Of a stretch of DNA of 64,000 nucleotides, positions 1,721 through 56,867 are shown one piece after another. The notes under the pieces are model-generated. The model ran no database searches, was not told the origin of the DNA, and saw only the letters and a program-made list of their open reading frames with translations. Location of the stretch: positions 39,187,276-39,251,275 of the forward strand of contig NC_091946.1 of the NCBI RefSeq assembly GCF_041260155.1, given 5' to 3'. The DNA comes from Ptychodera flava. Lineage: Eukaryota > Hemichordata > Enteropneusta > Ptychoderidae. Position numbers and translations under genes: made by a program. Every line of letters starts with the position of its first letter. Position 1 is the first letter of the stretch.

Positions 1721-4700
1721 TATATACATACATACATACATACATACATACATACATACATACATACATACATACAGACAGACAGACAGACAGACAGACA
1801 CACAGACACACAGACGTACATACTAAATACATAACTCAATATATACATCGTTATCGTCGAGCGCCCTTGTCCATACGGCGACCTATCAAGCTCATGATCA
1901 TTACTTCTAATGATTAGGCAAGACTGTCGTTTCCGCAGAAAATGCGATCATTTTAAACAAAAGCGACATTATCGAATCCCCTATTTACTCAGCGCACTCA
2001 ACCTTCAATGACCGATTTACGATATATAAGCGATAACGTGACTTGTATTTCCTGTTTTACGCATGCGTGAGTTGGAATCATTGTTATTTGCATATATATA
2101 TATATACAATAACAACATCAGGCGGTAATATGACCGCCATTTGCACGCCCTCGGGTGTTTTAAGTAAACTCGGGTTAAAATAACGGACCAGGGCTGCAAT
2201 ATCACGTACGGTCGATATATGAGGCATTTTTTAATGATTATTGCGTGTCACCATGTAGCTACGTACATTATTTTTGTTCTTTCTTTTCCGGTTCATGTTA
2301 CACTCACTATATGTGACCTGTAAATCAACTTGAATCTAAAACCTCGCGGAAGCTGTCATAATCGAAATTATCATAAAAAAGTCACGGACACTAATCATTT
2401 TAAGTTCGAACGTAGTGTATAATTTATTGTTCCCTCGATGGTCCATCGGCACAGCATTTGCGTCGAAGTCGCTCTCATAAAAATAGCTTTTTCCTGGTCG
2501 CGTTTCACAGACGTCGAAAACTGTAGACATTATCTGATGATTGTAGGCGTACATGGATAATGTTTCTGAAAGCACAAATAAGGACAACATCCATGAGTGA
2601 GACAAAACTTGCCCTTTGAGTGAAATACTTGCGCAAAACAAGATTAAACGGTCGTTAACATGAACGGTACTGTCACCTTTTCATGCAGTTCATTGGTAAT
2701 TTATTTCGAATTTATGAACAGATTGTGATATTAAGACGATGAGAAACTGCAGAATATCGTGGAAATACCTACAGCTACTCATTTCCCAGATAGAACTTTT
2801 CCGCCCTACTTGTTACCTTTCCGTAAAATTCCAACGAAACAGAAACGAGTTTGGACATTCCACCAAACTTGGGTCAATATCATTCATTGTATTTCACCAA
2901 ATTGGAATCTTGCAGACCATTGATTCTATGTTCAATAATAACTGCGTTTCGAACAGGCGTAAGGGAAAATAATGTTTCTGTAAACAAGCCCTCGGGGAAT
3001 AGGGCAGGTTAGTCGGGAACTTTTTAATTTTCTACTTTTATTTCAATGTGATCCTATAATACATGTAAGAGAAATTTTTCCACAAAACCATGCGTGTTTT
3101 TCGAAAATGCCAAAAAGTGTAAAGTTGGAAGGGTTTTAAATAGAGTAGCTCAGGTTACCGGAAGCACAAATATGTTGTTTCCTTGACCTCACCTTGATCC
3201 CATATTTTTTAAGTTCTGACTTTTCCATCGCAAGACCAAAATGAGTGAATGTCTCATTATAGGATTCCAAGATGCACAGAATATTGCAGCTACTAGACCG
3301 TAGATCCCATTCCCAGGGTCAATTCTCTTTTTACAGAAGTTTTTCACCTCACCATGCATAATCGGCCATTTGACTGTGTAACAGAAACCATTCCTTATAC
3401 TGTTTATAATGTTAACGCAAGGTAACAACTATGTCAGCAAGGAACAATTGCTAGCGTTGATAATGACATCCTGTGTGACCCCGTCTCATATACCACATTT
3501 TCACGATGTGCAATTAAAACGATATCCGGGCTATTTCTCACGTATTTCCCCCTTCCCTTGATATAGATATCCGAAAATAAGCACCTGACACAAGATGGCG
3601 TTCCTGACATTTTCACGTTCTCGTTTGGAGGAATGAACCATCTCATACGTACCTACGGCAGTAAGTCCAGCCAGGTCCGAGATGGTATTGACGTACTGTC
3701 GAGTTTCCTAAACAGGGTAAGAAGAACTCGACAAAATCAAAATGGCAAATTTAGTCACAAGTTTTTAGAGCTATCATCCACTGCTTTACATAGGAAGCTC
3801 GGAAAGATACTTTCCAAATTGTTCATTAGATATCCTTGAATAAGGATATGTACGTTGATATGATGAATTTGTTCACTTCAAAATTCCACTTATACTTGCA
3901 TACATTATTCTACCTAAATTAAGGTTGATTACAATGACAACACAATAATTTCAAAAGGAATATAAACCGTTTTCATAATGGAGATGTTAATAAGAGGTTT
4001 GATGTCACATTCTGTAAGGATTAGATCCAGATCTGCTCCGTTTTCTTTTTTCAAAAGGTCATGGCAAGATGACCTTTAGCTGAAATGTCACCAAGACTCA
4101 CTTGATGTTTTGTCTGTTCGGAAAAGATATGATACCAGTAAAAGTAAACTCTTTGATGAACGAATAACCTTCACGCCGATGAAATCTCTTTAAAAAAAAT
4201 ACTGATTTCTTCTCATGTTGAATTTACACCAAGATTTCTGTCATGGAAGATAAAACATTGAAACGAATGCATTTTAAATAAAATACTTGTTGTAACATCG
4301 AATCTAAACGAAAATTTATCTCGTTTGGTGAAATTAGACACCCTGCTCTTAAAATAGCTTGTACAAATTCTGTCGTCAGCCTAATTTCTGCCAACCTTAT
4401 CTTGGTTTCAGTTGATGACGACCCTGAAAGCATTGTACGGTGACGACATTGTGGCCGAAGTGGCAACTTTGACCCCTAATGACCCTATACTGGTGAGACA
4501 ACGCAGGCAGAGCGAACATGGAGACACGCGCACGCATGAATTTGAGGTAAGTGTCTGTGAGAGCGAAAACACAGCGTTGGTACTGTAGATTTTGCTGGTT
4601 TTCAAGGATGAAGAAGGTATTCCACTGTATCCCCAAGGATTGGTTAACATCTAAAATGCAAATTATGAATTGAAATACATACTTGTTTTAGCTACTTTGA

Positions 4701-5963
4701 ATCACATTTATTTTTATTAGATATGCCGACACAAAGTGTTGCATCGAATTAATAATTAGTTAAAATTACGAAGAGACACCGGTCTCAGTGTCTCCTATCT
4801 ACGTTGATTCAACTCAAAGAGTCGGTAGATGGCTAGACCATGCAATATCATGAGAACGCAATCTCCGTCTGAACATTCCTGGTGAATGTAAATTAAATTA
4901 GTAAAGTTAACAAATAAAGATCTGCAAACCTACAGTATTGAAAAGTCATCCCATCAAGGCATTCCAAATTTATGAGAACTTGTCTGACAAATGTCATTGA
5001 GAACTTGCATTACAAAACAAAGAGTGGTTAACACACAGAACAGACAAAGACATATGATTTGGCGGTCCTCAACTTAGATATAAACAAATATCTAGGTAGC
5101 CATGGCATAGTATCAATATGAAGAGACAAAAGCGTTTTTCCAAATAACTGAACGTTAATGTGCATCTTTGATATTCTTTGAATTGGTCATTTTTGTACGT
5201 CCCAGTGTGACAATCACAGTCTTTTACTGTCGTATGCAGATAAGAATGAACAGCGAATTTGATCTAAATGTTGCCACACTTGTGTGATTGGTTTGTAAAG
5301 TTGTTCCAAAACTTGCCTCAGAAGTTGCACTGACTTGTTGTAACTGCGGTGAAAATCAAAGAGCTTTTATGGACCCATAATAAACACATAGGAGTAAGGA
5401 ATAGAATATTCATCATTAGTCTTAATTTAAGAAAAACGTGATTGGAACTAATTTGGGAGAATTGAATATTCATATTTTTCAAATTTCTCAAAAGTGTTAT
5501 GTGCCGTATAGCTGAATTTTGCAATATTACAAATTACTCATAAGAACAAGTGCTTAATGTAAAAAGAGAAGCAGATAAGCTTATATTTGCAGATTAAATC
5601 GACATTACTTCACCATTCAATTATCCCAAATTAGTTCCAATCGTGTTGAAACTATAATTTGTGTAGATTGCCATAATTTACCCTCAAACCATTACACATC
5701 TTCTTCAATTACTCAAACACACCTTCCTGAAAACTAAATTTAAATTTTCTCCGCTATTGCAGAGTTCTGCAGATGTTGATCCCTCTGATTTCAACGTGGC
5801 CAAATCTACATCAGAAGACTTTCCATCACTTTTCCACATTGTTCTCTGGATTTCTGTGTTCTGGATTCTGACCATTTTTGTGATTTGTTTTCTGATGTGG
5901 TACATGGATCCTGGTGATACCATCATCTACAGAATGACAAGTCAGAGAATCAAGACAGAATAA
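1..5963 (+). CDS. ATP6AP2: ATP6AP2 (prorenin receptor), last four exons; 5' part lies before the window
   Basis: The product is a single-pass membrane protein that serves as a V-ATPase assembly factor and, in vertebrates, as the (pro)renin receptor. I joined exons 1-91 (partial), 3567-3716, 4412-4546 and 5763-5963. All introns are phase 0 with GT/AG ends, and the frame stays open to TAA at 5961. By eye the peptide follows the human C-terminal half: FLSELQIVQEIL (human FLSELQVLHDIS), SENKHL, LIRTYG, LYGDDIVAEVATL (human LYGGNAVVELVTV), then a transmembrane helix and MDPGDTIIYRMTSQRIKTE, almost identical to the human tail. RQRR in the third exon is a furin-type site at the place where human has RKTR. 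The first intron carries a foldback MITE (127-710) and microsatellites. An AATAAA overlaps the stop (5959-5964); a later poly(A) signal is likely. Confidence 0.93.
127..710. mobile_element. Foldback MITE, copy 1, with 7-bp target-site duplication
   Basis: Ends are CACAGGCGACCCAA and TTGGGTCGCCTGTG. The perfect 7-bp direct repeat TACAAAC flanks it (120-126 and 711-717). Almost the whole element is an inverted repeat: each arm holds the same sequence from the end through a CCTAA/TTAGG run to an AATTAATTAG stretch, with a short unpaired centre near 400. There is no coding capacity. It sits in the ATP6AP2 intron, 35 bp past the 5' splice site. A second copy lies at 48100-48650. A 7-bp duplication does not fit hAT (8), Mutator (9) or Tc1/mariner (TA), so the superfamily is left open. 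Confidence 0.9.
238..256. repeat. CCTAA pentanucleotide run in the MITE left arm
   Basis: Four CCTAA-type units here mirror five TTAGG units at about 573-600 in the right arm. The second MITE copy has only about two. It is a length-variable microsatellite inside the element. It resembles the arthropod-type TTAGG telomere repeat but lies deep inside a transposon, so it is not evidence of a telomere. Confidence 0.75.
796..1165. repeat. GATAATG-type minisatellite in ATP6AP2 intron
   Basis: Irregular tandem array built from GATAATGATACT, GATAATGACAATGGTACT and GATAATAGTAATG blocks, over about 370 bp. Reading frames across it on the minus strand are low-complexity and non-coding. Confidence 0.9.
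1576..1832. repeat. Compound microsatellite (CATA)n, (CA)n, (CAGA)n
   Basis: Tetranucleotide CATA runs are interrupted by ACCGCA blocks, then a CA run at about 1685-1717, more CATA, and a CAGA run at about 1776-1815. It is open on both strands only because of its simple composition. Confidence 0.95.
5434..5646. mobile_element. Small TIR element, copy A (about 215 bp)
   Basis: The left end has CGTGATTGGAACTAATTTGGG. The right end has its inverse, CCCAAATTAGTTCCAATCG. A diverged copy lies at 60924-61145 with the same order of internal sequence (AATATTACAAATTA, TTTGCTGATTAAATC). No coding capacity. It lies in the last ATP6AP2 intron, about 115 bp before the final acceptor. Confidence 0.7.
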
Positions 5964-14038: not shown

Positions 14039-17000
14039 ATGAAGACATGGCAAGAAAGAATGAACAAAGAGGAGTACAAAAACTGGCTGAAAGTAAGTCA
14101 AGCATTGCTGTTATTGTGTCAAGGCGTTGAAAAATTGACTACAGAGGTCGTTGACAAGTTCCATGGAGAACTCGTCAAGCAATGCGCCAGTGGTAGCCAG
14201 TCTATATGTACTGATGTATCATGCAAGAAGTCTAAACAAAATCAACGGCCATCCTGCGGTTTTTGCAAAAAGTTTGAACGGGAAATCGTTGCTGAACACA
14301 AGAACAAAGGCAGTATACACTGGAATAATTTTGACTGGAAGAAGTGGCCAGTAGTGGCCTGGGAAGTTGCGAAGGTCTACATGCCTGGAGGTCAGAAAGC
14401 GGCTGTTTGTACAGCGTCTGAGACGGACTCATCTGCATTGCTAAATTTGATGTCAAATTGTAAGAAGTTTCACAGTCATATTGATAAGAATAAACCAGGA
14501 AAGGTATGTAAGCACATTAAGCATCCTAAAACAAACTTTTGGTCAAGTACATATCAGTCTGTATAAGATAGCAATGTGCAAGAAATTTTATGGTCAGTTA
14601 CATCTCAGGATGTCAATATTATTTAAATTTCACCACCATGGTTGTCCCAAATCCATTGTTTTCTATGGTAAAGTTGGACCTGTATACAGGGAACTGGGGG
14701 TGAAAGGGTTAAATTTTCAATCACAATGAAGCCATTTTGAAAAGCAGTGTTTTTCTGATAGAACTGCCATTGCACATTCTGAAATTTTTAATTTTTTCTT
14801 TTATTTTCAATCATTTAAGTTACATGGTTTAGTTCACTAGGTTGTTTCACTATTTCATTTCAATGTCAGGGAGTGCATCATTAGGTCATTTCAGTTTCAT
14901 TTCAATGTCAGTGTCTCATTAGGTTGTTCATTGTTTCATTGAAGGTTATTGTATCATGAGGTTGTTTCACTGTTTCATTTCAATGTCAGTGTGTCAGTAG
15001 GTATTTTGTCGCGTCTTATTTCAGAGTTATTTATCATTCACTGAGACCTTTATTGAAATCCAGATTCCTCAAGGGATGAGATCTCAATAAAGGAATACAT
15101 TACATTGCGTGTCATTGCATTGCATTGTGTTACTTTATGTTACATTACGTTACATTATATTACCTCTATCCCTCTAGAGGGGCTGTGACATTACATTGCA
15201 TTACATTACATTACATTGCATTGCATTGCATTACATTAAATTACATTACATTATATTACCTCTATCCCTCTAGAGGGGCTGTGACATGGCATTGCATTAT
15301 ATTGCATTGCATTACATTACCTTACATTATGTTATATTACAATACATTACATTACATCACATCACATTAAATATCATTACATTGCATTATACTACATTAC
15401 ATGATAAGTAATCGCTTTGTATTCAATGTACCATAGACCGTCAGAGTGACTGGTCAGAGGTTCAACGCAATTGAAAAATATTGTCTGTTTGTTTTAGGTT
15501 GTACAGTTGAAAGATATCTGTTTGTTTCAGGTTATACAGTTGAACGATAATATCTGTGTTTTTAAGTTATACAGTTGAAAGATATCATCTGTAAGTTTTA
15601 GGCAATACAGTTGAAAGCTATCATCGTTTTGTTTTAGGTTATACAAGTGAGAAACAAGACAATGCACTCAGCTCAGATGGAATTTACAAATCATGAAATG
15701 AAAGATCACATTAAAGTCATACTTGACCTTGTACATGAACTCAAGAACCGACCTGAAGCTAAGCAAGCTGCCAAGACAATATCTAAGGTAAAATGACAAC
15801 TATGCAGTGTTGATCTCAATCTTTTTGAGGCATTGTATATTTTGTAGATCATCCACTTTTTCTAAGCAGGAGGAGAGGTGACTAATATCAAGGGTAACAA
15901 TGTCTTAAGATTAATCCACTACTATTTTACTGCAGTCGGAGGAGGAATATGATTTTAATTTTTCACTACCAGTAATACTTTACGTATAGAGAACACAGAA
16001 TAGTATAGTATAAAAAAAGACTGTTATCATAACTTCAGCCTGTACATTTTCTGTTAAATGCAAAGTCAAACATTGGAAAAGCAACTTCACATCAACTTAA
16101 TATGGTAAAAGCTTTATCATATCGATTTTCAAATTGGGTCTTCCAGTATTCTATGATTTAATATTGAGAGACATTAGACTTTTGAGGGACATCAGTGTTT
16201 TGAGGGACATGAGATTTTTCAGGGACATCAAAGTTTTGAGGGACATCAGAGCCTTTAGCGACTTCTGAGTTTTGACGTACATCAACAGTTTGAGGGACAG
16301 AGCTTGTAGGGACATCAGAGTTCTGAGGGACATCAAACCTTTTAGGGACATTAGTGTTTGAGGGACATCAGAGGTTTGAGGAACATCAGAGTGAATTGAG
16401 GTTCATATCTCTGAAATGAATATCAGTTCCTGCAACCAGAATTTCTTGACTGCTTTAAACTTGTAGTTCTAGAAAATTTGAGAAATAAAATCATCAGTGA
16501 TTCATTACCACAGGAAATGAGATTGCTTTTCACATCTCCCAAGGCAGAGTCAATGTACCAGACAAGTCAAGAAATTCTGGCTCTGCAGTCATTATAAACA
16601 CAAATTTCACAAAGAGATTTGAATACCAATGTAACATGCTACCATCATAGCTAGAAATTTTGCTGCAAGTCAATTTGAATTTTTCACGTCATGCTTGCTA
16701 ACAATTCGTGCTGTCAAATTTTTGATTGGTGTCTTCATTCATAGCTTAGAGATGGAAGCTTTGTCATCACACAAGAAGTGGAAAATGAAATCTTGAAAGA
16801 CAGATTTGAAGAGTTTGAACGACGTCTAGGGGTACTTGAAGAGAAATTATCATCAGAGGTCAGTTTTAGGAAATTGTAACTATTTTACATGTCTTGTAAA
16901 TAGTTACTGTTTTACATGTGTCCTTACACGTGTTTTCACTTTAGCTTACTTGTAATTAAACTAATCAGAAAATAATTAAATTAAACTGAGTTTGAAGTCT

Positions 17001-20000
17001 CTATTTGCTTCGTATGTTTTGCACTGTTATCTAAAATTGGAATATGAACCATAATGGACCCAGCCCAGTATTAAGTAATTCATTGTCATGTCTTCTTCAT
17101 TTCTAAATGTGTAACTGTATTCAGGAAAAGACTGCATTCTGGATTGTTGTAAGCCTGTATCAGGGATAGTTTTGGCTTTATACCAAGTAGAACCTGATAA
17201 ACAAAGGCACTTTTTGATAACTTACCAATCATCTCAGGTTTCAAAACTGATTTGATATTAATTTTTTATTACTGACTGTTATAGTTTCCTTCAATAACAA
17301 AAAACAGTACATGTTTCCAGTCAGTACAAATTTATGACTCAGATTTTTATCAAAAAGTTGTTTATCTTCGGCTTGAATGCACTTTTTACTCACTTGAATC
17401 ATGTAGTCTTGTGAAAAATATTTCACAATAATAGCGGTATTCATTTATTATTTTGAATTTGTAAACACAACATAAACAAGGCAAGGGCAAGTCTAAGTAA
17501 ACACTGATGTAATTCAAGAACAGACTGTTTTCAAATTTTTGATTAATCTCAAAAAGATTTTTAACTTTAGAAGATAACTTTTAGCAGATTGAAAGGAATT
17601 TTAAAAATGCCCAAACAAGAGGATATGGACTTTTCTAACAAGACATTGATTGTTTCTTAGTGATATCATTCAATTGATTGCCTGCCCTCAGTGGATAATT
17701 GCCCTTGCATTGAGAGTTATCTACTACTAACAACATAACAGTATTAGGAGCTGCTGACAACATTTTAATTTAAAGAGAAAGTATCGAGAAAAAGTAAATT
17801 TTGATAAAAGGTTCACGTATATAGAGTGCTTTAATAAGATCTTAAACCTGTTGATACAATTTACCAAGTATGTACCTCATCATGAACAGACTCCTATCTG
17901 TTTCTCGCTGTTATCTTCACGATACTTTGTCTTTACCAGTAACATTGAAAAGGGCAAGTAACAACATTGAAAAGGGCAAGTAACAACATTGATGAGGGCA
18001 AGTAACAACATTGATCAGGGCAAGTAACAATTAATTGATCAGGGCGAGTAACATTGCGTAAAAATAACTTAGATCTTCACAATTATGATGCAAGATACAT
18101 TTAGTTAAAGACTGGCCTTTGTCATTGCCGAGATGGAACTACATTTTTGAACTTCAGAAATGAGTGACAAATGGTCTTCTTTTTTCACATTTCAGATGCA
18201 AGAAGCCATTGAGAAGTTTCAGAATTTCATCAATGGAAACTCTGATTTGAAAGAAATATTTGGGACTGATTTGAGTTCACTTGAGAATAGGGTGAAAGAT
18301 CTGGAACACACAGTGCAAAACCTAGATGAAAGACTTTCAAAAGTAGAGAAAGGTATGTCATTTAAAGGTTATAGGTTGAGACGTTAAAGGTTTCACAATG
18401 GTTAAATTATACACAGGATGAAAAGTTTAAGTTGTGGATATAGATTAGGTAGATCGCTATTCATTGCACTGTATTCAATGTCTAAAGAAAATCTAAATGT
18501 TACAAAAAGGTAGGTACAACAAAAAAATGTTTCTCTCAAGTTTACAATGACCAAAACAATTTAAAACTCAAAATTTGCATTTGATGTAAATGTTCTACTG
18601 TTATAAAGTCATACTCATTAGCAAACTTCATTTTATCACCAGAAGAAGACTTGTTGATTTGCACCTGTGTGGCTGTACAATACCTCTCCAACACTAAGAC
18701 ATACACACAGACACCTCCCAACACTCAGACATATATACAGACACCTCCCAACACACAGACACCTCCCAACACTCAGACATATATACAGACACCTCCCAAC
18801 ACACAGACACCTCCCAACACTCAGACACACAGACACCTCCCAACACTCAGACACACAGACACCTCCCAACACTCAGACATATATACAGACACCTCCCAAC
18901 ACACAGACACCTCCCAACACTCAGACACACAGACACCTCCCAACACTCAGACACACAGACACCTCCCAACACTCAGATACACAGACACCTCCCAACACTC
19001 AGACATATATACAGACACCTCCCAACACTTAGACATACATACAGACACCTCCCAACACTCAGACACACATAGACACCTCCCAACACTCAGACGCACAGAC
19101 ACCTCCCAACACTCAGACATATATACAGACACCTCCCAACACTCAGACATATATACAGACACCTCCCAACACTCAGACACACACAGACACCTCCCAACAC
19201 TCAGACACACACACACAGACACCTCCCAACACTCAGACACACAGACACACAGACACCTCCCAACACTCAGACATACATACAACACCTCCCAACACTCAGA
19301 CACATATACAGACACCTCCCAACACTCAGACATATACACAGACACCTCCCAACACTCAGACATATATACAGACACCTCCCAACACTTAGACATACATACA
19401 GACACCTCCCAACACACAAACACACAGACACCTGCCAACACTCAGACGCACAGACACCTCCCAACACTCAGACATATATACAGACACCTCCCAACACTCA
19501 GACATATACAGACACCTCCCAACACTCAGACACACACAGACACCTCCCAACACTCAGACACACACACACAGACACCTCCCAACACTCAGACACACACACA
19601 CACAGACACCTCCCAACACTCAGAGATACATAAACACCTCCCAACACTCAGACACATATACAGACACCTCCCAACACTGAATATGTGCACTTCACAACTT
19701 TATTTTTCCTTGCACATTGATTGACTCAATTGTTTGTATTTTTTCCTAATATTATAATTATTATGTTTTCATGATAGGTGGCAAAAGAGCAGCGCCGTTG
19801 CCATCAATGTTCAAGAATCATCTACAGCAGTATTGCCAGGAGAATAAAATAAACCTACCTGAGTATGAATCAATACCAGCTGAAAATGGTAAGACATTTG
19901 ATCATGTTCCGATCTCACAAAGGTCATAAAGTCTCTGCATAAAGCATGTACATATGAGTAAATGTGAATTCACATGCGGTAATATTCCAAGAAAGAACTC

Positions 20001-23000
20001 AACAGTACATCATTTAAATTCTCTTGAAAACCATAAAATACTATCCTGAATTTCACATACTTTGATTTAAACAAACTGAAAAATATCCACACGTCATTCC
20101 ATTGTTGAAATAGAGTCTTTGAAGTAATTCGAGGGTCATTTCAGTCTTGTAACTGCTATTGTGACTACTATTTTGTCTGTTTTCCATGAAAATAGTTTCA
20201 TATCAAGTTTATTCCTGAAAGTAAAAGAATATAAATGGAGAAATATATGAATGTATTGCATAACTTTACCACAACTTTACAACTTTAGTGGTATTGATAA
20301 ATTAATGTATACATCCTTGAAGGCCATACATATGATGAAAAACAGGAATTATGTAGATGAACAAAAGCACATGAAAGGGAAATTACAAGCACAATGATTA
20401 TTGTATCATTTTAAAGTTCTTCTCAGTAGTTTAGATTTCAAAGAAAGCAATACATAAAGTAGCAATGAAGATGCTGTGTTGTATCAGTTTAGGTACGGTC
20501 ACCACACTGTCTCAGTAATGTGACAGTACAGGGCTGCTATTATCTGGTGAGGTCATTCCAGGTCACACCCACTTCCATTTGCAGTGCACTGTGTTAGAAA
20601 TGTGGCAGTTTATTTTTGAAATGCGACATGAAGTTGGAAAGAAAGATCAGTTTGTTCATGAACTTTTCTTTTAATGTTTGCATTTTTGAAGCTGATTGAG
20701 TGGCACAGATTGGTGTGGGTGTATAAATTGTAGATACAGTACAGGAGTTGTTGTACAGGTACTGGAGCCAAGCCTAGCTGACCTTTGATTGACCTTGTCT
20801 CAAACAGTAGCCTATTACCATAATGCTGCTAATTCATGGCTGTATTCAATTCAGACACAAATGTAAATATAAAGCAGTTTCAACTTTTGGAAACTAATGT
20901 ATGCTCTTAACCCTTTGCACCCTGACCCCCTGGTACTCTATGACGTCATCGGACATTTCTGTCCGAGCCGGGTTCAAAGGGTTAAATCATCCACAAAAGA
21001 ATGAAGTTAAACTTTGATCCTTCAAAACTGAATCCTTTTACCATTATGATGTGACTGAGACACCACAGTGTTATCATTGGTTAGTGTGGTCATATTTACA
21101 GAACATAACAGATAAACAGGTCAAACAATATCAAGCCTCCATAACTGTACCTTGTTACAATTCACACTTTATGATGTTGTCATACCAACATACATGTCTG
21201 AATGTTATTGTGTGTCTGTTGGTGCCATACATCAGCATTAGGTTCATCAGATTGGAAGCAAATCTGGGACATTGATTCTGAATGGTATATGGCATCAAGT
21301 GATCAGAATCGTGATTTGGCTTGAATGATAAATGCTACTTGATAATATTCAAGAACTCGGGTATTGTCAGAATTACTGACCACATGTAACAAATCTTGCT
21401 ACAGATATCAGTCATACAAATATTTGTCAGTTTTCAAGGTCATTCAGCAGTTTCATGTTAATTATTCATTTTTATGTCCAACGAACTTATGTGAAATGTA
21501 TCATTTTAAAATATTGACACTGGAATTTGATGAAACTTGTTATATATATTGATGATACAAAGATGTGACAAATTTGACTAAACTCTGTACAGGTCTCTGA
21601 TGTGTCTGCATTATAATAGTAACTGTGCAACTCATCAAAATACAGACACATCACTTTAATACAATGCAATGTTGACCAAACTTAGTGTAATAAAGTTTGT
21701 ATCATACATGCATACTTTGGTGATGACTGTTTTCCGAGGGACATTCAAAAATTAGAGGCAACATGGATACAACCTTACTTACTCGACCTTACTTGCTCCT
21801 CACTGTAATCAGGGAAAGTTGGTTGCTAAGGAGTGATGACAACCGTATCACTTGTTGATATCATTCTTAAGTGTTGTAAAATTCAGATAGAGACATGAAT
21901 TCAGCTGTCAACAATTCTTTAAGGTGTAGTTTGAATCCAGACCAATAAACTGTAGTTGATTGCAAGATACTGAGAAAAATATCCGGTATCTCATCCCCTT
22001 GAACATTTCTCTTAGATTGCCATCTTACTTCAAGAAACATAGTTACGTAGTCTAATAATTTTGCTAAACTAAATGCAGGGTCTGGTAATATCATAGAACA
22101 AAAAAGCGTTAATGATAAAGGTCAACCAAAATCTGGCCAAGTTCAATAAATTTTTCAGTTCTGTAATTTGAACATTCTGTAACAGGTTTCTACAGCAAGG
22201 TCACTGTTGATGGGAAAACTTACAAGAGTAAAGAATTACGAACAACCAAAGTGGACTCTGAACAGGATGCAGCAAGGGAGGCACTCAGATCTCTGGGCAG
22301 GTTAGACCAGGAAGAGGGCGCTACATCTGATGGAAATGCTAAGCTGCCTTTTGACGGTAAGAACTTTTCAATAGCCTCTGATGTATTCTTATTTACAACA
22401 GATTCATCTGATGTGCACCATACAGGTTAATAATCTTTTATCTATACTCTACCAAGATGATATTGTCCACACAGCATTTGCCCTGACCATTAAATGCTGG
22501 AGATTGAGGGCACAAGATTACCTTTTACCCTTTGAACTTGAACTAAAAATGTTTTCCAGGGGTATGTAGCCATGTTCCGAACCATAACCCAGACATTTAA
22601 CGTTTCCAGTCACTGATGTGAAATGCTGTCTGTATGCTGAGTTTAAACTGACCAATTAGTGTACACATAGATAGCTGTGCTGTCAGTGACACAGAGCTCA
22701 TCAGATATTTTCTCCAAATCATGTGGTCTGAAAACATTTAGTCATTTGGGATGATCTGTCTTTGAGTAGATCAAAGCATGTTGAAATTTGTCATGCCTAT
22801 GCCAATTCTGGGGGCAATTTTCACATGTTTGGTAAAAATATCTTCTCTGATTCTGCTAAGCTGATAGCTTATAAATTTAATAACAAGAGGTTGATCTTGT
22901 TCAGATATGCAAAGATTTGCATAAATTTGCACGTGGACACTGTAAAAGTGAATCAATTATAGTGTGTCACCACCTGGTGAAATAATGGATGAGAAATCTG

Positions 23001-26000
23001 AACTACATGTATGATGATTGAGTACAGTACAGGTATATCAACCACTGGGTAGCTAGTTTAATTTTACCTCAAGTAAACATGCAGTTTTTACTACATAATT
23101 AAGGCAATATGCTTGTATGTGAGGGAATCAAAATTTGTTCATAGTGGCTCAAAACCTTTCTTGTACTCATAAATGTAATATTTGAGTCGCAACGTTTCAA
23201 TTGCTGTGCCCTCAGGGACCATTAATTCAACTGAAGTTTATTTCTATCACACAGAAGATACCAACTACATAGGAATTCTACAGGAACACTTTCAGAAGAT
23301 TGGACTTTCAGTGCCTGACTATGAGTCTAACAAATGCAGTGATAATCCCGCCAAATTTACTGCATGGGTTGACGTCTCACAAAAAGATTCAAATACAAAA
23401 AAGCGTTATCAGAGTGAAGACATGCACAGTAATGCTAAGCGTGCTAAGCATGCTGCTGCTAAAACAGCTCTGGAAGCATTGAATATTCCACTGATCAAAA
23501 ATACGAAGTCTGGCGATGAAAGTCCAAAGTGTCAACAAATCTCATCACCAAACAAGGAGAAGACTGCTACAGCAGTGACACTTCCTGATAAAACATCAAC
23601 AATTTCACCAATAAGTAAGGACATTTCTCTATTAGGGAATAGAAGGTTTAGGGCAAAATCAAAGGGGATATGCAAATATACAGTGATATGAATGAAGATT
23701 GCCATTGTCGGTTTATCTTTTACATGAACACTACAATAAATATGCACCAGGTAAACATTTTGATTATCGTGTACAACTCCAAGCAGTCTTAAAATGGATG
23801 TGAGGTGAAACTTAAGGTAAAGGGCGACGAATTCGGACGCGCACACGCTTTAGAACATTTCTGCGCAGATTTAACTCCAGCCTGCCGCAAATGGGTTATT
23901 GTGTAGCGCATGTATTTAACATCACCTGTCATTGTTGAAATTGCGCTTTTACCTAATTTTTTGACCCAGTCTCTTAGAAATACATGTGACCTTTAACCTT
24001 GTCATATTTTGACCCCCTAGGAAGCTGGTTTTTATTCAATATGAGTGCAAAATTAACATTTCTCTCCCATTTACATGGCGCATATTACCCATTCACCTGG
24101 AGATATTGTAAAAAGTAGCGTGGTGACACCCTTTGATTAAAAGTGTAAACTAAATGGTATTATGTCTTGGAGTTATCCTGGATTCTGGTCTTACGATGTA
24201 CCCTCATGTCAACAATATCTGCCGCTTAGCTATTTTTCACTTACGACGCATTGCAAATATTCGCAAATATCTCTCTAGATCAGACACGGAACAGTTGATT
24301 CATGCTTTTGTGACATCACGCATTGATTCATGTAATTCGCTTCTTTATGGTCTTCCGAAATATTCAATTGATCGCCTTCAACGTATCCAGAATGTAGCTG
24401 CCAGAATTGTAACTCGCTCAAGAGTCACTGAGCATATCACCCCGATTTTGTTTCAGTTGCATTGGCTGCCTGTGTCTCAACGTATTGTTTTTAAGATTCT
24501 TATCTTCACCTATAAATGTATCCATTCACTCGGTCCAACTTATCTATCTAGCATGGTTAATTTGTACGTACCAACCCGTAATCTAAGGTCCGCTGACCAA
24601 TTTAAACTGTGTCAAAGCAGGTCGCGCACAAAGAAATATGGGGACCGTGCGTTCAGTATTGCCGCCCCCTTTTTATGGAACAATCTTCCAATTGAGGTTC
24701 GTCGCTCCCCAAGCCTGACAAGTTTTAAATCAAGTCTTAAAACATTTCTTTTTAATTCTGCTTTTAACTGATCTCATTCATTGTATTTTTTTGTTTTTGT
24801 TTTGTTTTTAATTCTTGTAACCTTTTTAAAATTGATTGTATTTTACCCAGCGTCTCTGATCACACTATTTGTGTGGATTTAGTCGCTTTATAAATGAATA
24901 AATTATTGTACTTGGGCCTCAGCCCAAGTACATTTGTTTTCATTCCGTGGGTTATTATGTCAGGATTTTATTCGCCAAGTTTGGTCAAAATGACACCATT
25001 CAAAGCGACAGGAAGAAAGTTCGAAAATTATGTAGTGATATAATCGATACTTATGTTAAAATTTCTTTACAAACATCATGAAAACTATACATTCGATAGA
25101 TATGGATCGTAATTCTTGGTATTTATTAAAATTAACTCATTTGCTAAGCGTTTTATACTTGCTTTCTTTAGTTTAAGTGAATTATATCACTTTTATTTAT
25201 TTCTAACGACTCCATTTTAACGTCTGTTTCCATGGAAACGAGTGTGGTGACCCCCATTTTTTATTTCATTTTTGCACTTGCACAACATCCAAGAATATTT
25301 GTGCAAATTTTCAAGAAAATGACACCACAACGTAATTTTGACGTAATTCGTAGTACTTCACCTTAATTGCAAGACAACGATTGTTTTGTTTAATTGTAAT
25401 CTATTGCAATACAGTTTGCTTAAATTCAAAGAAGTTGGCTTGCTTGCTGTGGCCTGATCAACACTACAGAAAATGTACTATAAGTCTTTGTCACTGCTTC
25501 AGAATTGGAATTTCATATTTTTGATAATTATCGTACTACTACAAATACCAAAAATATATCTGTGAGATCCTGTTTATAGATACATTGAACAAAATACACA
25601 TATTACTGTTTTCATGACATACAGAATTTTTCCTTGAATTCTCAGAATGTCATCCTCCAGCAGATGGTGTTAATTTCAAGGGAGCACTTCAGGAATTCAT
25701 CAAAAAGCAAGGAATCACGGATGAACCAGTCTATGAAGATATATTAATAAAGGAACAGACCTACACAGCCAATGTCAAGTTTAAGACAAAGTTTGCCATC
25801 CAAAGTGACAGATGTTCTAAGAGTAAGAAAGAATCTGAGAGTCTATTGGCTCAGAGAATCTTGACAGAATTGAAGAAGCCACCATCTGAGAGTGCCAAGG
25901 CTAAACTCAATGAATTGGGTTCACCCAATCCAGTCTATGAAACCTATGAGGTTGACTGTCAGGCAAAAGTCAAAGAATTTATGAGCATTATGCTCTATGC

Positions 26001-26124
26001 AAAGATTACAAGCATAAATGAGATTACAATCAAGGGGAAGGAACAGTTTACAAAAAAGAAAGAAGCCCAACAAAATGCTGCCAAAAATGCCGTCACGTTG
26101 CTCCGAAAACTTCATTTTGAATAG
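14039..26124 (+). CDS. HEPN (CXorf38/DZIP3-type) + coiled coil + four dsRBDs, 681 aa, eight coding exons
   Basis: Predicted cytosolic dsRNA-binding HEPN protein. Coding exons: 14039-14503, 15638-15787, 16745-16858, 18196-18352, 19778-19888, 22186-22356, 23216-23614, 25646-26124. All junctions are GT/AG and the frame is continuous; intron phases run 0,0,0,1,1,1,1. Residues 1-205 resemble human CXorf38 (DUF4559): WPVVAWEVAKVYMP against human WPVDAWEVAKAFMP, a C57-x4-C62-x10-C73-x2-C76 putative zinc knuckle, and R160-N-K-T-M-H165, the R-x4-H HEPN signature. Residues 206-295 form a charged heptad-like coiled coil. dsRBD1 is about 305-370 (split by an intron), dsRBD2 408-480, dsRBD3 531-595, dsRBD4 605-680. 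dsRBD2 and dsRBD4 keep the basic helix-2 motif (NAKRAKHAAAKTAL; KKKEAQQNAAKNAV); dsRBD1 and dsRBD3 have degenerate ones. The start ATG has A at -3 and begins at the conserved N-terminus. No RING or ATPase is present. Whether it cleaves RNA is not shown by sequence. Confidence 0.85.
14830..15010. repeat. Degenerate tandem repeat, about 40 bp unit, intron 1 of the coding region
   Basis: Imperfect units built from GGTTGTTTCACTGTTTCATTTCAATGTCAGTGTGTCATTA recur about four times. Confidence 0.6.
15095..15395. repeat. (CATTA)n-type array with an embedded duplicated block
   Basis: CATTA/CATTG pentanucleotides fill about 300 bp. A block reading CCTCTATCCCTCTAGAGG plus GGCTGTGACAT occurs twice (about 15165 and 15260), so a larger unit of about 95 bp was also duplicated. 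Confidence 0.85.
15486..15650 (+). repeat. Tandem array of acceptor-like units leading into the second coding exon
   Basis: Units of 33-36 bp carry TTTTAG (or TTTCAG/TTTTAAG) followed by GTTATACAGTTGAAAG-like sequence, with exon-like starts at 15498, 15531, 15567 and 15602. The true exon start at 15638 is the fifth copy (GTTTTAG|GTTATACAA). All four upstream copies run into in-frame stops if used as exon starts. It appears that the splice acceptor itself was tandemly amplified. Confidence 0.7.
16155..16400. repeat. Minisatellite, about 18-21 bp unit (GAGGGACATCAGAGTTTT)
   Basis: About twelve degenerate units lie in the intron between coding exons 2 and 3. The minus-strand open frame (MSLKTLMSL repeats) is a by-product of a unit length near a multiple of three. 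Confidence 0.85.
17940..18055. repeat. Minisatellite, about 20 bp unit (GGGCAAGTAACAACATTGA)
   Basis: Five or six units with AAAAGGGCAAG or ATCAGGGCAAG variants, in the intron before the coiled-coil exon. Confidence 0.85.
18685..19680. repeat. 1-kb minisatellite filling most of intron 4 of the HEPN-dsRBD gene
   Basis: The core ACACCTCCCAACACTCAGAC recurs about forty times, separated by variable CA and TATATA spacers, so units vary from about 20 to 32 bp. It takes up about 1.0 kb of the 1,425-bp intron. A 357-codon frame on the plus strand and long frames on the minus strand cross it; both are pure repeat and non-coding. Confidence 0.95.
20907..20985. mobile_element. piggyBac-like MITE, short copy, TTAA flanks
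   Basis: It begins TTAACCCTTTGCACCC and ends GGGTTCAAAGGGTTAA, that is, a TTAA duplication next to inverted CCCTTTG ends, the hallmark of piggyBac-type MITEs. A longer relative lies at 54744-54965. It is in an intron of the HEPN-dsRBD gene. Confidence 0.75.
23812..25366. mobile_element. TTAA-flanked DNA-transposon remnant in intron 7, holding a nested LINE
   Basis: The left end TTAAGGTAAAG and right end CTTCACCTTAA are imperfect inverted repeats at TTAA sites. Inner flanks share GTGTGGTGAC-like blocks on both sides of the LINE. No transposase frame is visible. The boundaries are less certain than for the other elements because the terminal similarity is short. Confidence 0.4.
24140..24912 (+). 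mobile_element. 3' end of a CR1/L2-type LINE (reverse transcriptase C-terminus)
   Basis: The open frame 24154-24771 encodes the C-terminal part of a non-LTR ORF2: LGVILDSGLTM, SRIDSCNSLLYGLP, RIQNVAARIVTR, LHWLPVSQRI, YGDRAFSIAAPFLWNNLP. These are standard landmarks of CR1/L2/Rex-like elements. It is 5'-truncated, as is usual for LINEs, and ends in a TTTATAAATGAATAAATTATTG tail. The open frame of this fragment is uninterrupted, so the insertion is fairly young. It lies in intron 7 of the HEPN-dsRBD gene in the same orientation. Confidence 0.9.
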
Positions 26125-42408: not shown

Positions 42409-43146
42409 TCATCTTGGTACCTTGCTGAACGTCCATCGATCTCGGTTTGCGAATCGGAGTACATTTGAATTACCTGTGTAAAATGTTCCTGACGCGGTAC
42501 TGATGAGTTCAAATCCAAGCCTTTTGATGTCATTTAGTATTGGCAACACACCAATGTCACTGATCGGGTCTCTGTGTTGAGGATTGGGAATTATTTGTTG
42601 GAACTGCACGCCATAAATTGCGCAATACTTCTCCCATTCCGGTGTATTTATCGGTGAATCTTTGGCAAGGCGGAGATGAGACATTAGCGTTGGCATAGCT
42701 TTTATCACGTCTGCATGTGCGTATATCATAAAATCCCAATCGTGGCAGTACTCATCACGTTGATTGTGAACAAGTTCTACGAACTGTGCACCGTCTGGCT
42801 GAATTTCAGCTTCCCTTCTTCTGTGTTCCTTTTTCACCGCTTGTTTTAAGTCGTCAAGCTGATAGAAGTCCGCTTCTCTGATCAGCAGCTTATAATCTTT
42901 GAAATCGTCAGGCAGACAGAGCTCTGACAGTCTGAGAAAATTGAGAATGTGGCGGAAAATTTCCCCGTCTCTGTCGATCAAGTAGGTTCCCCTGTCGTCA
43001 GTCTGGACCGGTACGCGCCCACTGAACATAGCTCCCAGCATGGAGTCTGGGTAGCGTGTTAACGTCGTCAGAGAGGTTGTGTAGAGCTTGCCTCCAACGT
43101 CAAGTCTTATCATACGGCCAACTGTAGTTTTCAACTTGTGTTCCAT
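42409..43146 (-). CDS. KCTD6/KCTD21-like BTB protein, 245 aa, single coding exon
   Basis: KCTD proteins are BTB/T1-domain adaptors. KCTD6, KCTD11 and KCTD21 recruit Cullin-3 to substrates such as HDAC1 in Hedgehog control. The N-terminal BTB domain (about residues 12-110) is nearly superimposable on human KCTD6: LYTTSLTTLTRYPDSMLGAM, IDRDGEIFRHILNFLR (human IDRDGPLFRYVLNFLR), and LREADFYQ-type sequence. The C-terminal half is more divergent but ends in the expected DRWTFSK block (human HNWTFCR). Length matches the family (237-260 aa). The gene is intronless in its coding part, like human KCTD6/21. It cannot be assigned to one paralogue. Confidence 0.93.
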   Translation of the reverse strand: MEHKLKTTVGRMIRLDVGGKLYTTSLTTLTRYPDSMLGAMFSGRVPVQTDDRGTYLIDRDGEIFRHILNFLRLSELCLPDDFKDYKLLIREADFYQLDDLKQAVKKEHRRREAEIQPDGAQFVELVHNQRDEYCHDWDFMIYAHADVIKAMPTLMSHLRLAKDSPINTPEWEKYCAIYGVQFQQIIPNPQHRDPISDIGVLPILNDIKRLGFELISTASGTFYTGNSNVLRFANRDRWTFSKVPR

Positions 43147-43769
43147 TGTAAGTACTTCCGCGTCATATGCTTGGAAAAATATATGATCACAACCCTAGCG
43201 TTCTGCTGTAGAACACGCATATGTTAATAGAAAAACGATTGCATTGTGGGATAGCAATTTGGCATTAATTTATTGTAGATGAGAGGAAAGCAAATATGAC
43301 GTTTTGCTTGTATGAAAAGACTGTTTAAGATTTACATGTCAAAGGTTTTACGACTGACTCTTACGAATCAAAATGGCGGACAGTATAAAACGCACAATAA
43401 GTGTATTATGTGTGCGTGTGTGTGTGTATAATTTTATGTGTTTTTAAGATCTGTAGGAAACATTGTGTTGTAAAAGCTATTTTACCAGATTTTCAACGAC
43501 TCTCTGCTGACTTCCGCCTGACAAATTTTAGCTAGCTTTCGTTAAACCGCAATTTAAACTTATTATTTTGTATATCACGAGTCTAACAACTTTAAATTTC
43601 CGTCCGGCTTAAATTTTGTCATTGTTATCGATTTTAGAATGTATTGCTGCTGATAGACTACTACCTATACTGTAAATCATTCATTAGATGAAACAGTGCA
43701 AAAGACAGAACTGAAACCGCTCTTTAAATATATTTGCAGATACTATTTTACTTGCTTTAGATCAAAAGT
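43147..43769. other. Upstream region of the KCTD gene
   Basis: This should contain the promoter for the minus-strand KCTD gene, but I see no clear TATA box or 5' exon boundary. A short TG run lies at 43408-43430. Confidence 0.4.
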
Positions 43770-48099: not shown

Positions 48100-48650
48100 C
48101 ACAGGCGACCCAATAGGTTCTGAGTTTTTCACACTGTTTTCTCTATCATTTTCTCTTCTTTCTTCATGCTCTGAATGATCGGAATAAATAAAATAAATGG
48201 TTTATATAACCTAACCTAGCCTCTGTGACTCTTTATTTATTTTACACTCCATTACAAGGACGTATATCTCTCATACACACATGCTGTAATTAATTAGTCA
48301 ACACAACTAATTATGCTAATCCGTGGACTTATCAGAGGTTGGTCAATATCGGAAAGATAGTGATGTTATGTAACCATTCCTATCTTTCGCGATGTTGACC
48401 AACCCGTAAAATCCCTGATAAGTCCACGGATTAGCATAATTAGTTGTGTTGACTAATTAATTACAGCATGTGTGTATGAGAGATATACATCCTTGTAATG
48501 GAGTGTAAAATAAATAAAGAGTCACAGAGGCTAGGTTAGGTTATATAAACCATTTATTTTATTTATTCCGATCATTCAGAGCATGAAGAAAGAAGAGAAA
48601 ATGATAGAGAAAACAGTGTGAAAAAGTCAGAACCTATTGGGTCGCCTGTG
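48100..48650. mobile_element. Foldback MITE, copy 2, inserted into the minisatellite
   Basis: Ends are CACAGGCGACCCAATAGG and CCTATTGGGTCGCCTGTG, flanked by the 7-bp repeat CCCAGAG (48093-48099 and 48651-48657). The arms match copy 1 (127-710), including the telomere-like TTAGG piece, which is shorter here. The interior is a near-complete hairpin and non-coding. Confidence 0.92.
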
Positions 48651-49560
48651 CCCAGAGTATGGGCATTTGGAACCCAACCCAAAGTATGGGTATTGGGAAC
48701 CCGACACAAAGTATGGGCATTCGGAACACAACCCAAAGTATGGGTATTGGGAACCAGACACAAAGTATGGGCATTTGGAACCCAACCCAAAGTATGGGTA
48801 TCGGGAACCCGACACAAAGTATGGGCATTGGGAACCCAACCCAAAGTATGGGTATTGGGAACCAGACACAAAGTATGGGCATTTGGAACCCAACCCAAAG
48901 CATGGGTATTGGGAACCCGATACAAGTATGGGCATTGGGAACCCAATCCAAAGTATGGGCATTGGGAACCCAACCCAGAGTATGGGCATTTGGAACCCAA
49001 CCCAAAGTATGGGTATTGGGAACCAGACACAAAGTATGGGCATTTGGAACACAACCCAAAGTATGGGTATTGGGAACCAGACACAAAGTATGGGCATTTG
49101 GAACCCAACCCAAAGTATGGGTATCGGGAACCCGACACAAAGTGTGGGCATTGGGAACCCAACCCAGAGTATGGGCATTGGGAACCCGATACAAGTATGG
49201 GCATTGGGAACCCAACCCAAAGTAGGGGTATTGGGAACCCAACCAAGAGTTTCGGCATTGGGAACCCAACGCAAAGTAGGGCATTGGGAACCCAACACAA
49301 AGTATAGGCATCGGCAGCCCGACACAAAGTATGGGCATTGAGAGCCCGACACAAAGTATGGGCTTTGGGAAACCGACACAAAGTATGGGCATTGGGAACC
49401 CGACACAAAGTACGGGCATTGGGAACCCGATACAAAGTATGGGCATCGGGAACCCGACACAAAGTATTGGCTTTGGGAACCCAAACAAAGTATGGGCATT
49501 GGGAACCCAACACAAAGTATAGACATTGGGAACCCGACACAAAGTGTGGACTTTGGGAAC
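48651..49560. repeat. 27-bp minisatellite, right part, with 54-bp higher-order structure
   Basis: About 34 units of 27 bp. Up to about 49160, two unit types tend to alternate (TATGGGCATTTGGAACCCAA... and TATGGGTATTGGGAACCCGA...), giving a 54-bp dimer. Later units are more uniform. Because 27 is divisible by three, frames of 190-350 codons stay open on both strands; none is a gene. Confidence 0.96.
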
Positions 49561-49850
49561 CAAAGACGCCCAAGAAACAAGGAAAGGAGACGAAAGAGAG
49601 AAAACAACGCACAAAAACGTTGAAAAACAAGGTGACGAGAAACCCTTGCTCCTTCAGTTACGGTTTGGTCGGCCTCTTAAACCCTAAATTAAAGTTTGAC
49701 CCCATTATGTCAATTTTGTGCTTACCAGACTGTGGGTGATCTATGCTTTGAATGGATACTCATTTCGGTGTGACGTCATCGTTGTGTTGGCTCCCTACAT
49801 TAGTACTTACTTTCACATTGATTGTATTTCCTCCATTTTTACTGTCTAGG

Positions 49851-50688
49851 CAAGTGCAGCTAAGACAAAAAGAAGATGGCAAGCGTTAATGACATCGATG
49901 AGAGACCAACCCGTGTGGCACTTTGGACATACCCACGTACACGTTCTTTGACCATGGAGTTTGCCATGGCAACGCAGAAGGATACCGCTGTCTATCACGA
50001 AAACTTCTACGCTGCGTATCTTTTCGGAGATGACGATGGCGACGAGGAGGAAGGGCTGCCTGAATTCGGTTACAACGAAGTCCAGTCAAACTTTGAGAGA
50101 TGTGACCCGGATAAATCAGTTGTGTTTGCCAAAGAGATGGCATTCACGCTGCAAGGCAATTATAATCTATTACCCAATGGTTTTGTCCATACTTTCTTGA
50201 TTAGAAACCCGGAAAAATCCATCGCATCTCTGTATAAAGTTTTCAGCGGTACCGAATCACGCCGACCAGACGAGAGAACGGTGCAAATGTCTGGAGTAGA
50301 CGAACTTTATGAACTCTACAAGCATGTGGAGAAAGTAAGCGGAAAGCAACCAATTATAATTGACTCCGACGACCTCGTTCGGTTTCCGAGTCAGATTCTA
50401 CGGAAATACTGCTACGCAGTGGGCATTAAATACTCAGAGAGCATGATGACGTGGAACAGTGGCGCCGAAAAAGTGGAGTCTTGGCCAGAACCGCTGCAAG
50501 ACGCAACGTTTATGTACGAAGACGCCTTGAAGAGCACCTGCTTTGACTTTAACCTGTCGTCTGTTGGCGTAGTCAATCAAGTCAAGTTGCCACCTATTGT
50601 CAAAACGAGCATTGAGTCTTGTAGACCGCTTTATAGAGAAATGTGGGAGAGAAGAATTAGGCCTGACACCAAGGAAACTGAGATTTAA
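49851..50688 (+). CDS. Sulfotransferase-fold protein, 270 aa, coding in one exon (49876-50688)
   Basis: Member of the P-loop sulfotransferase-like family (Sulfotransfer_5 type), which would transfer sulfate from PAPS to an unknown acceptor. Residues 14-28 (VALWTYPRTRSLTME) occupy the place of the 5'-phosphosulfate loop. FLIRNPEKSIASLYK (107-121) matches the 3'-phosphate-binding RNP...S motif. IIIDSDDLVRFP and the following LRKYCYAVGI match the usual conserved C-terminal region. An acceptor (CTGTCTAG) ends at 49850 and the ATG follows 25 bases later, so an upstream non-coding exon exists. An acidic insert (GDDDGDEEEG, 51-60) is unusual. AATAAA at 50757 is a likely poly(A) signal. Substrate unknown. 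Confidence 0.85.
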
Positions 50689-55845: not shown

Positions 55846-56867
55846 TTATTTTTTTGGTAGTTTTGGCGGCACTTTGGGGCTTGCCTTCCAACGCTCATGC
55901 CCTGCGTTCGCATAGCTGTGTCCAATCATAGGATTTTTCAAAATAACGTCGACATGTGAAACTTGTTCATCATCTAAAACAACCGATTCGTACTGCAGTG
56001 TCGGTACTTCCATATTCTTTGTGGCTTTGTTACGTTTATTGGGAGGTAAGAGAGCTTTGCGTCCTTGCTGATGGCGATTGTCGCCCTCACATTCGTTGAC
56101 AGTAGTCTCTGGCTTTTTAGTATGTTTAGCGACCGAAATGTACTTGTGATTATAACGGTTAAGTTCTACAGGTTCATACGATGTAGCGACTGTATGTTCT
56201 TTGTCAAGCTCATGATTAGTAATTTCACAATTCAAGTTTACGTACGACTTGCCATCTTCAAGTTCATTTCCAAGGCTACCGTTCTCTTTCTTTTGATCAA
56301 AATTTTCGTAAGTCATACCAGCTCTGTCTTCGCTTTCAATCTCGTTGTCCTGATTGTTGGGGTCAACATTTTCGTAAGACGCATCACTGTCTGACTCAGC
56401 GTCCCCCTTTTCGTCTTTCCATGAATCCCCGTCGCCCTGTTCCTCAACATTCCCGTCTTTGGAAACATTTTTGTAGTATCCCTCTTGAAAACCCGTTTCA
56501 CCGACAGCAGGCTCCGTTTCCGTTTCGGCTGTCGTCATCGACGATTTTCGACGGCGAAATATGCAGATCAAAATAATGGCGACGACAACAATCACAATGA
56601 CTGTGGTTGCCACACAACCAACAATTATAAACGTAGTTATATCATCACCATCATCATCCCCAAAGTCTGTTGTTGTGCCGAGTGATGATGTCAGCACTGA
56701 TGACGTTACTCTATCTTGTGACGTAACAACAATCATCGTCGACGGTTCGGTCAGATTTGAGGCAGATCTGTCACCAACAGTTGTTGAGGACAGACCCACC
56801 ATGTCCGTTACTTCTGACTGTTTCCACTCTGTTACTGACCTAGTGTATATGGGATAACAGTTGATTC
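55846..56867 (-). CDS. Last exon of a single-pass membrane protein with a phosphotyrosine-motif tail (family unknown)
   Basis: The acceptor is at 56868 and the frame is open for 339 residues to the stop at 55846. Numbered from the internal Met at 56802, residues 1-54 are a Ser/Thr-rich stalk, 55-82 are a strong transmembrane helix, followed by RRRK and a long acidic cytoplasmic tail. The tail carries Y110-KNV, Y143-ENV, Y165-ENF and Y187-VNL (four Grb2-type YxN sites), T-S-Y209-E-P-V (ITSM-like), L-Q-Y271-E-S-V (ITIM-like), plus Y221 and Y297, and ends in PKVPPKLPKK, a class-type SH3 ligand. Such tails are typical of immune receptors and adaptors. The extracellular exons were not found upstream in this window; the first residues (NCYPIY) may close a disulphide domain. 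Identity is not recognised. Confidence 0.75.

Follow-up and report, generated by a model that had tools for sequence, protein, structure and literature searches.

The CXorf38 family of HEPN proteins was covered in a 2013 survey (Anantharaman et al., PMC3710099), whose sections on the family list it in vertebrates, Saccoglossus, Branchiostoma, Ciona, and Nematostella, describe a zinc ribbon within its HEPN domain, and mark it Active. The same sections report the fusion of HEPN to dsRBDs, hemichordates included, predict an RNase activity on dsRNA for the family, and propose a function in defence against RNA viruses. Our literature search found no RNase assay of any CXorf38 protein. Other proteins with several dsRBDs, such as PKR, TRBP, and HYL1, are not known to contain a HEPN domain. 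RNase L, whose RNase domain is of the KEN type, is activated by pairing.

We analyzed a stretch of 64,000 nucleotides (the window) from the hemichordate Ptychodera flava, in which the original prediction had placed a HEPN domain, a coiled coil, and four dsRBDs on one chain and had regarded this order as undescribed. The claim of novelty was wrong for the HEPN-dsRBD fusion, which has been in print since 2013 (PMC3710099). Compared with the CXorf38-family proteins as presented in the family sections of that survey, the P. flava protein has the same R-x4-H motif, zinc-ribbon insert, dsRBDs, and proposed action on dsRNA, and we found no difference in kind; those sections mention neither a number of dsRBDs nor a coiled coil or synteny. 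The HEPN-dsRBD architecture is not new, and the locus is a hemichordate member of the CXorf38 (DUF4559) family.

The coding region extends over positions 14039..26124 of the forward strand, which carries all the features given below. As anticipated, eight exons join there in frame, and all seven introns are GT-AG. Use of the acceptor at 25646 for exon 8 yields a product of 668 aa that is identical, letter for letter, to an NCBI P. flava protein (P0001) annotated as "uncharacterized" and nothing more; the acceptor at 25625 is also possible and yields 675 aa. The length of 681 aa given earlier was not reproduced and probably reflects a different exon edge. Exon 1 (14039..14503) encodes residues 1-155, with the first part of the HEPN domain and the zinc-ribbon insert, and exon 2 (15638..15787) encodes the HEPN end (residues 156-205). 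The next two exons encode a helical segment in the coiled-coil region (exon 3, 16745..16858, residues 206-243) and the coiled coil proper (exon 4, 18196..18352, residues 244-295), for which the best register places hydrophobic residues at 8/8 a/d positions in 28-residue windows starting at 263-269. Three exons of phase 1-1 follow: exon 5 (19778..19888) starts dsRBD1, exon 6 (22186..22356) encodes its remainder (residues 307-369 over exons 5 and 6), and exon 7 (23255..23614) encodes dsRBD2 (residues 394-465) and a linker. Exon 8 (25646..26124 with the NCBI acceptor, 25625 being the possible alternative start) encodes dsRBD3 (residues 520-585) and a partial dsRBD4 (residues 599-662) and ends with the stop codon TAG. 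Among 1596 open frames of at least 25 aa in the window, we found no paralogue besides the eight exons.

That a single predicted protein joins a HEPN domain to a coiled coil and dsRBDs was borne out, as the same domain order recurs in four other proteins, from Saccoglossus, Amphiura, a catfish, and a further contig. An accident of the gene model, with two genes fused by annotation error, is therefore unlikely. One of the four is a single frame of 1043 aa on a contig of 3960 bases, which would fit a transcript. Counting that of P. flava, at least five proteins combine DUF4559 with dsRBDs; this number is a lower bound, from protein searches in which 7999 and 7995 candidates were scored in the first two and 2 were found among 199 in the third. 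The second and third searches added no further family members. Close prokaryotic or viral relatives were sought and none was confirmed (23 pattern stretches in genome contigs, 111 in viral contigs), and exon 1, as expected, had no match in plasmids. The Saccoglossus kowalevskii protein LOC100377645 (P0002) matches DUF4559 (E value of 4.2e-59) and dsrm (4 stretches) like its P. flava counterpart, to which it is 39% identical over 83% of the query (44% in the multi-protein alignment). It is longer, at 838 aa, and has five dsRBD-like stretches versus four in P. flava; its residues ∼300-355 look like a retained intron.

The CXorf38-like character noted from the letters alone was confirmed by the PF15112 (DUF4559) profile, which matched residues 7-291 of the 675-aa protein, coiled coil included, with an E value of 4.4e-54 and a score of 184.5 bits versus a Pfam cut-off of 27. 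Identification of the HEPN domain itself came from profile comparison: hhalign aligned the family profile with 57 bacterial Swt1-like HEPN sequences, R-N-x3-H on R-N-x3-H, with a probability of 83.9 and a score of 36.7, which decreased to 24.5 when the motif was masked; the highest score among 200 column permutations was 19.8. At the level of sequence profiles, the detectable HEPN relative of the P. flava protein is thus Swt1-like. The Pfam HEPN family PF18731 matched residues 1-205 weakly and under its cut-off (E value of 0.0066), in a list where the unrelated Cobalamin_bind reached 0.0049; it matched 2/5 family members, with a best E value of 0.0016, under the Pfam cut-off where shown. HEPN_DZIP3 was absent among the Pfam matches listed (E values up to 10, with filters that remove most matches above ∼0.1; 25 of 87 families in the family-wide comparison). 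Solved HEPN structures did not appear among the best 50 of 321 Foldseek matches or the best 50 VIA-align matches, both of which were dominated by dsRBDs.

The predicted RNase motif R160-N-K-T-M-H165 lies where it had been placed, at codons 15650..15667. It fits the pattern by which HEPN motifs are recognized, an R-x4-6-H in which a polar residue follows R. Taken alone, R-x4-6-H is expected by chance, since it occurred in 1582/2000 shuffles of P0001, and the protein itself contains four such patterns. However, R160/H165 is the sole one kept in 5/5 aligned fused proteins, in which R160, N161, M164, and H165 are invariant; this conservation rules out a chance R-x4-H. The fuller form RN-x3-H is rare, with 19/2000 shuffles of residues 1-205. 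In the predicted single-chain model, residues 152-164 form a helix and H165 is the first residue of the loop (block pLDDT of 92 and 80), and HEPN motifs are described at the helix end and the start of the next loop in the 2013 survey sections (PMC3710099). An intact HEPN motif is supported by its conservation, by the profile alignment, and by where it lies relative to the predicted helix. A putative zinc ribbon, C57-x4-C62-x10-C73-x2-C76 (residues 57-76, 14207..14266), agrees with the zinc ribbon reported in the CXorf38 HEPN domain (PMC3710099), and its four cysteines are invariant in 5/5 aligned proteins.

Four dsRBDs had been read from the sequence, and the PF00035 (dsrm) profile recovered four stretches at a lax limit in the 675-aa protein (E value of 7.1e-24) and three in P0001 at a limit of 0.01. 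These matches and that to DUF4559, like the recurrence of the domain order, far exceed chance expectation. The alpha-beta-beta-beta-alpha folds of dsRBD1 and dsRBD2 are firm, as both matched solved dsRBDs in structure comparison, and in the predicted model the fold of dsRBD3 is fair to weak and that of dsRBD4 partial; model confidence is low for dsRBD3-4 and the coiled coil (pLDDT of 50-68). Canonical dsRBDs contact RNA through a helix-1 E, GPxH, and KKxAK (PMC11309768). Neither GPxH nor a full KKxAK was present in any of the five fused proteins. The statement that two dsRBDs have the canonical basic helix-2 motif thus held only in part: partial motifs occupy the KKxAK position in dsRBD2 (AKRAK), dsRBD3 (KKESE), and dsRBD4 (KKEAQ). 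The helix-1 E is limited to dsRBD2 and dsRBD3, and the charge of the dsRBDs is near neutral. The P. flava protein shares the dsRBD fold with PKR, TRBP, HYL1, and other multi-dsRBD proteins but lacks the full forms of GPxH and KKxAK.

Upstream of the locus, the forward strand carries an open frame with the exon for the N-terminal domain of ATP6AP2, the renin receptor (3567..3839; PF25294, E value of 3.2e-11), and the last ATP6AP2 exon (5763..5963, start approximate; PF07850, 1.9e-20; PDB renin receptor, 9.6e-13). Human CXorf38 also lies near ATP6AP2, with MPC1L between them if the listing order is taken as map order (table in PMC4227166). The proximity of ATP6AP2 to a DUF4559 locus in both genomes supports orthology and does not bear on the family definition. 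Like the P. flava protein, human CXorf38 has DUF4559 and belongs to the HEPN family; it presumably has no dsRBD. Given the shared neighbour, it is probably the same locus without the dsRBDs.

The layout, in which a Swt1-like HEPN domain carrying a zinc-ribbon insert precedes a coiled coil and an array of dsRBD folds, suggests how the protein may work. In the likeliest mechanism, two HEPN domains would pair, assisted by the coiled coil, and R160 and H165 of both chains would form a metal-independent endoribonuclease site, by analogy with the HEPN superfamily. The dsRBD array would keep the dimer on structured or double-stranded RNA through many weak contacts and not one strong contact, and cutting would be predicted on or near the bound RNA. 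The likeliest biological setting may be defence against RNA viruses, as proposed in 2013. We give an approximately even chance to this reading of the protein as a CXorf38-family HEPN RNase dimer tethered by its dsRBDs to structured RNA or dsRNA. Triggering of HEPN cleavage by dsRNA through dimerisation is plausible, and is weakened because canonical RNA-contact residues are missing. The lack of GPxH and full KKxAK in the five fused proteins, together with the poorly modelled dsRBDs 3-4, argues against a simple dsRNA sensor.

A different role for the array is possible though unlikely, in which the dsRBD folds would act mainly in protein-protein contacts and assemble RNA-silencing or immune complexes, the HEPN RNase cutting other RNA. 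The third dsRBD of TRBP and Loquacious and the fifth of Staufen act in this way, and two of the best fold matches of dsRBD2 are protein-interaction dsRBDs. We consider it quite improbable that the HEPN domain is noncatalytic, serving RNA binding or dimerisation in an RNA-binding regulator devoid of RNase activity. Our failure to find an activity assay of any family member in the literature would fit such a regulator, and HEPN domains without the motif are thought to be noncatalytic (PMC3710099). However, all five aligned proteins, whose sources are hemichordates, an echinoderm, a fish, and one further contig, keep R, N, and H unchanged, and the survey sections mark the family as Active.

The comparison with RNase L concerns the proposal that this single protein replaces the OAS/2-5A/RNase L relay. 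HEPN-type R-x4-6-H chemistry is expected in both proteins, but the P. flava protein has no 2-5A step, and no ankyrin, kinase, or KEN domain was among the 22 Pfam families listed for it (E values up to 10). A stand-in function in animals without RNase L is possible, since Table 1 of PMC6307210 reports OAS in Saccoglossus, which has the same fusion, and gives RNase L, interferon, receptor, and STAT1/2 as absent there, and sensor-type and effector-type domains do share one chain. Yet the canonical dsRNA-contact residues are missing, and "replacement" has the order wrong: according to the same study RNase L is the later of the two, so no relay would have been replaced. We judge a stand-in role very improbable. 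Our literature search found no paper joining RNase L, oligoadenylate synthetase, and hemichordates.

A doubtful but conceivable reading is that a one-chain, dsRNA-gated HEPN RNase was ancestral in deuterostomes and kept beside ATP6AP2 as a dsRNA-to-RNase switch predating RNase L; human CXorf38 would then be the effector half, having lost its built-in sensor and receiving its signal from another protein. By position and sequence, the locus links the poorly understood human CXorf38 to a relative that bears dsRBDs. R160, H165, and a single domain array provide handles on the question of a dsRNA-directed HEPN RNase in animals, which, if true, would stand apart from RNase L and might predate it.

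The locus at 14039-26124 (+) resolved into an eight-exon gene, as originally predicted, with GT-AG borders at all seven introns. With acceptor 25646 for exon 8, the product was identical to the NCBI protein P0001 (668 aa, "uncharacterized protein [Ptychodera flava]"), which assigns the window to this hemichordate or to a source that cannot be told from it at this gene. Acceptor 25625 gave 675 aa; neither product had the originally predicted length of 681 aa. Upstream of the start ATG, the reading frame has a stop at 13982 and no second ATG in between. Introns 1 to 3 are in phase 0 and introns 4 to 7 in phase 1. Exons 5, 6, and 7 are symmetric 1-1, consistent with the dsRBD exons having been added through exon shuffling at a single border. 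In intron 1, a 36-base tandem array (15471-15645, ∼5 copies) extends into the exon-2 splice acceptor and thus places acceptor-like copies ahead of the genuine site, which may give rise to alternative splicing. Intron 4 carries a ∼1-kb minisatellite (18682-19678, unit near 30 bases) between the coiled-coil and dsRBD exons, with long spurious open frames inside it. A 205-aa open frame in intron 7 (24154-24771, +) resembled by eye the final portion of a reverse transcriptase from a LINE and had no Pfam match at 0.001.

The predicted domain content was borne out by a Pfam profile search of the product, which matched DUF4559 (PF15112, 305 profile positions; E value of 4.4e-54, residues 7-291) and dsrm (PF00035; 7.1e-24, four stretches). 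The DUF4559 match extends through the coiled coil, so HEPN and coiled coil form one known family unit, to which the dsRBDs are the sole addition. The AlphaFold2 model, built from 5 sequences (mean pLDDT of 67.1, pTM of 0.40), predicted helices after the HEPN domain at 194-208, 215-238, 243-257, and 259-294, at low confidence (pLDDT of 50 to 68); in the best register, 28-residue windows starting at 263-269 had hydrophobic residues at 8/8 a/d positions.

Seven proteins were found at E values up to 0.001 among the matches listed. Five combined DUF4559 and dsrm: those of P. flava, Saccoglossus kowalevskii, Amphiura filiformis, and the catfish Hemibagrus wyckioides (si:ch211-91p5.3), and a 1043-aa protein from a contig of 3960 bases, whose single coding frame points to a transcript. 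The other two were plant dsRBD proteins. Additional protein searches listed no further member with both domains, giving a total of at least five.

On its own, the R-x4-6-H pattern says little: it appeared in 1582 of 2000 shuffled versions of P0001. When residues 1-205 were shuffled, RN-x3-H occurred in 19 of 2000 sequences. Among the four R-x4-6-H patterns in P0001, R160/H165 alone is kept in all five aligned proteins, as are N161, M164, and cysteines C57, C62, C73, and C76. The Swt1-like HEPN family PF18731 matched residues 1-205 at 0.0066 and two of the five members (best, 0.0016); this match alone is weak, because it falls below Pfam's cut-off and the unrelated Cobalamin_bind stands ahead of it in the same list, at 0.0049. 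As a more stringent test, we compared the HEPN profile of the five members with an alignment of 57 bacterial Swt1-like HEPN sequences from three genome scans (matches in 2/10, 31/296, and 27/296 genomes), of which 41 contain RN-x3-H and 56 R-x4-H. The profiles aligned over residues 124-187 (probability of 83.9, score of 36.7), with RNKTMH placed on RN-x3-H. Scores did not exceed 19.8 in 200 column permutations and reached 11.8 with the reversed profile; with the six motif columns masked, the same stretch still scored 24.5. The HEPN part of the model was good (pLDDT blocks of 74 to 94, falling to 55 to 64 at the extreme N terminus and over the zinc ribbon). It placed R160 close to where helix 152-164 ends and H165 as the first loop residue, in agreement with the helix-end/loop-start location stated for the HEPN motif in PMC3710099. 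Among the matches listed in structure searches with the model, dsRBDs dominated and none was a solved HEPN fold. These data show that the P. flava protein is a member of the HEPN/CXorf38 family and carries the R160/H165 motif.

The original observation was confirmed, and its interpretation was supported in part. The claim that no described protein has this domain order fails, because Anantharaman et al. had already published the HEPN-dsRBD fusion in the CXorf38 family in 2013 (PMC3710099, as excerpted). Human CXorf38 is handled as uncharacterized or as a tumor suppressor in excerpts of PMC12196990 and PMC9623088, and the words HEPN and RNase are absent from the PMC9623088 text. No activity test appeared among the papers listed for CXorf38 or DUF4559, for the zebrafish clone, or for HEPN together with dsRBD or dsRNA. 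The P. flava gene adds a new and well-placed member to a described family, and among these listed papers we found no activity test for that family.

The best-supported reading is that the HEPN domains would pair as an RNase dimer, which the dsRBD array would hold on structured RNA; the dimer may then cut this RNA, putatively in defense. Alternatively, the dsRBD folds could serve mainly in protein-protein contacts, as a scaffold. This second explanation gains from the RNA-contact residues missing from the dsRBDs (GPxH and a full KKxAK, absent in the five members) and from the fold matches of dsRBD2.

ATP6AP2 is the nearest upstream coding gene recognized, the 8 kb between having been covered by reading the sequence. 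Its exons encode RENR_N (3567-3839, +; Pfam, 3.2e-11) and Renin_r (in 5667-5963, +; Pfam, 1.9e-20; PDB renin receptor, 9.6e-13). For human Xp11.4, the excerpted table of PMC4227166, whose sequence we take as map order, gives BCOR, ATP6AP2, BC010395, MPC1L, and CXorf38, with MED14 four names on. ATP6AP2 is thus a neighbor common to the P. flava gene and human CXorf38. Gene orientation in P. flava presumably differs from that of the human locus. Because of the shared neighborhood and the sequence, human CXorf38 and the P. flava gene are probably orthologs. Loss of the dsRBDs from the human form is accordingly more likely than their never having been present, although other lineages could have gained dsRBDs independently. 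In the available portions of literature naming both genes, we found no discussion of their synteny, nor did we find mention of an ATP6AP2 neighborhood for a hemichordate CXorf38 relative. Elsewhere in the window lie a KCTD-like 261-aa open frame (42409-43194, -; BTB_2, 1.8e-19), a repeat array (48549-49657) in which each strand carries long open frames, a 274-aa open frame (49864-50688, +; Sulfotransfer_5, 1.5e-14), and a 344-aa open frame (55846-56880, -) that is rich in tyrosine, includes a transmembrane-like stretch, and had no Pfam match at 0.001.

According to excerpts of PMC6307210, Saccoglossus has OAS and lacks RNase L, IFN, IFN receptor, and STAT1/2, and the OAS/RNase L pathway is concluded to be absent from lower Metazoa. 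On this account, no such relay is known from this acorn worm. Going by this literature, which concerns Saccoglossus and not P. flava, a path that leads from dsRNA to RNase within a single protein is a vacant place in an acorn worm, which the CXorf38-family protein could possibly fill.
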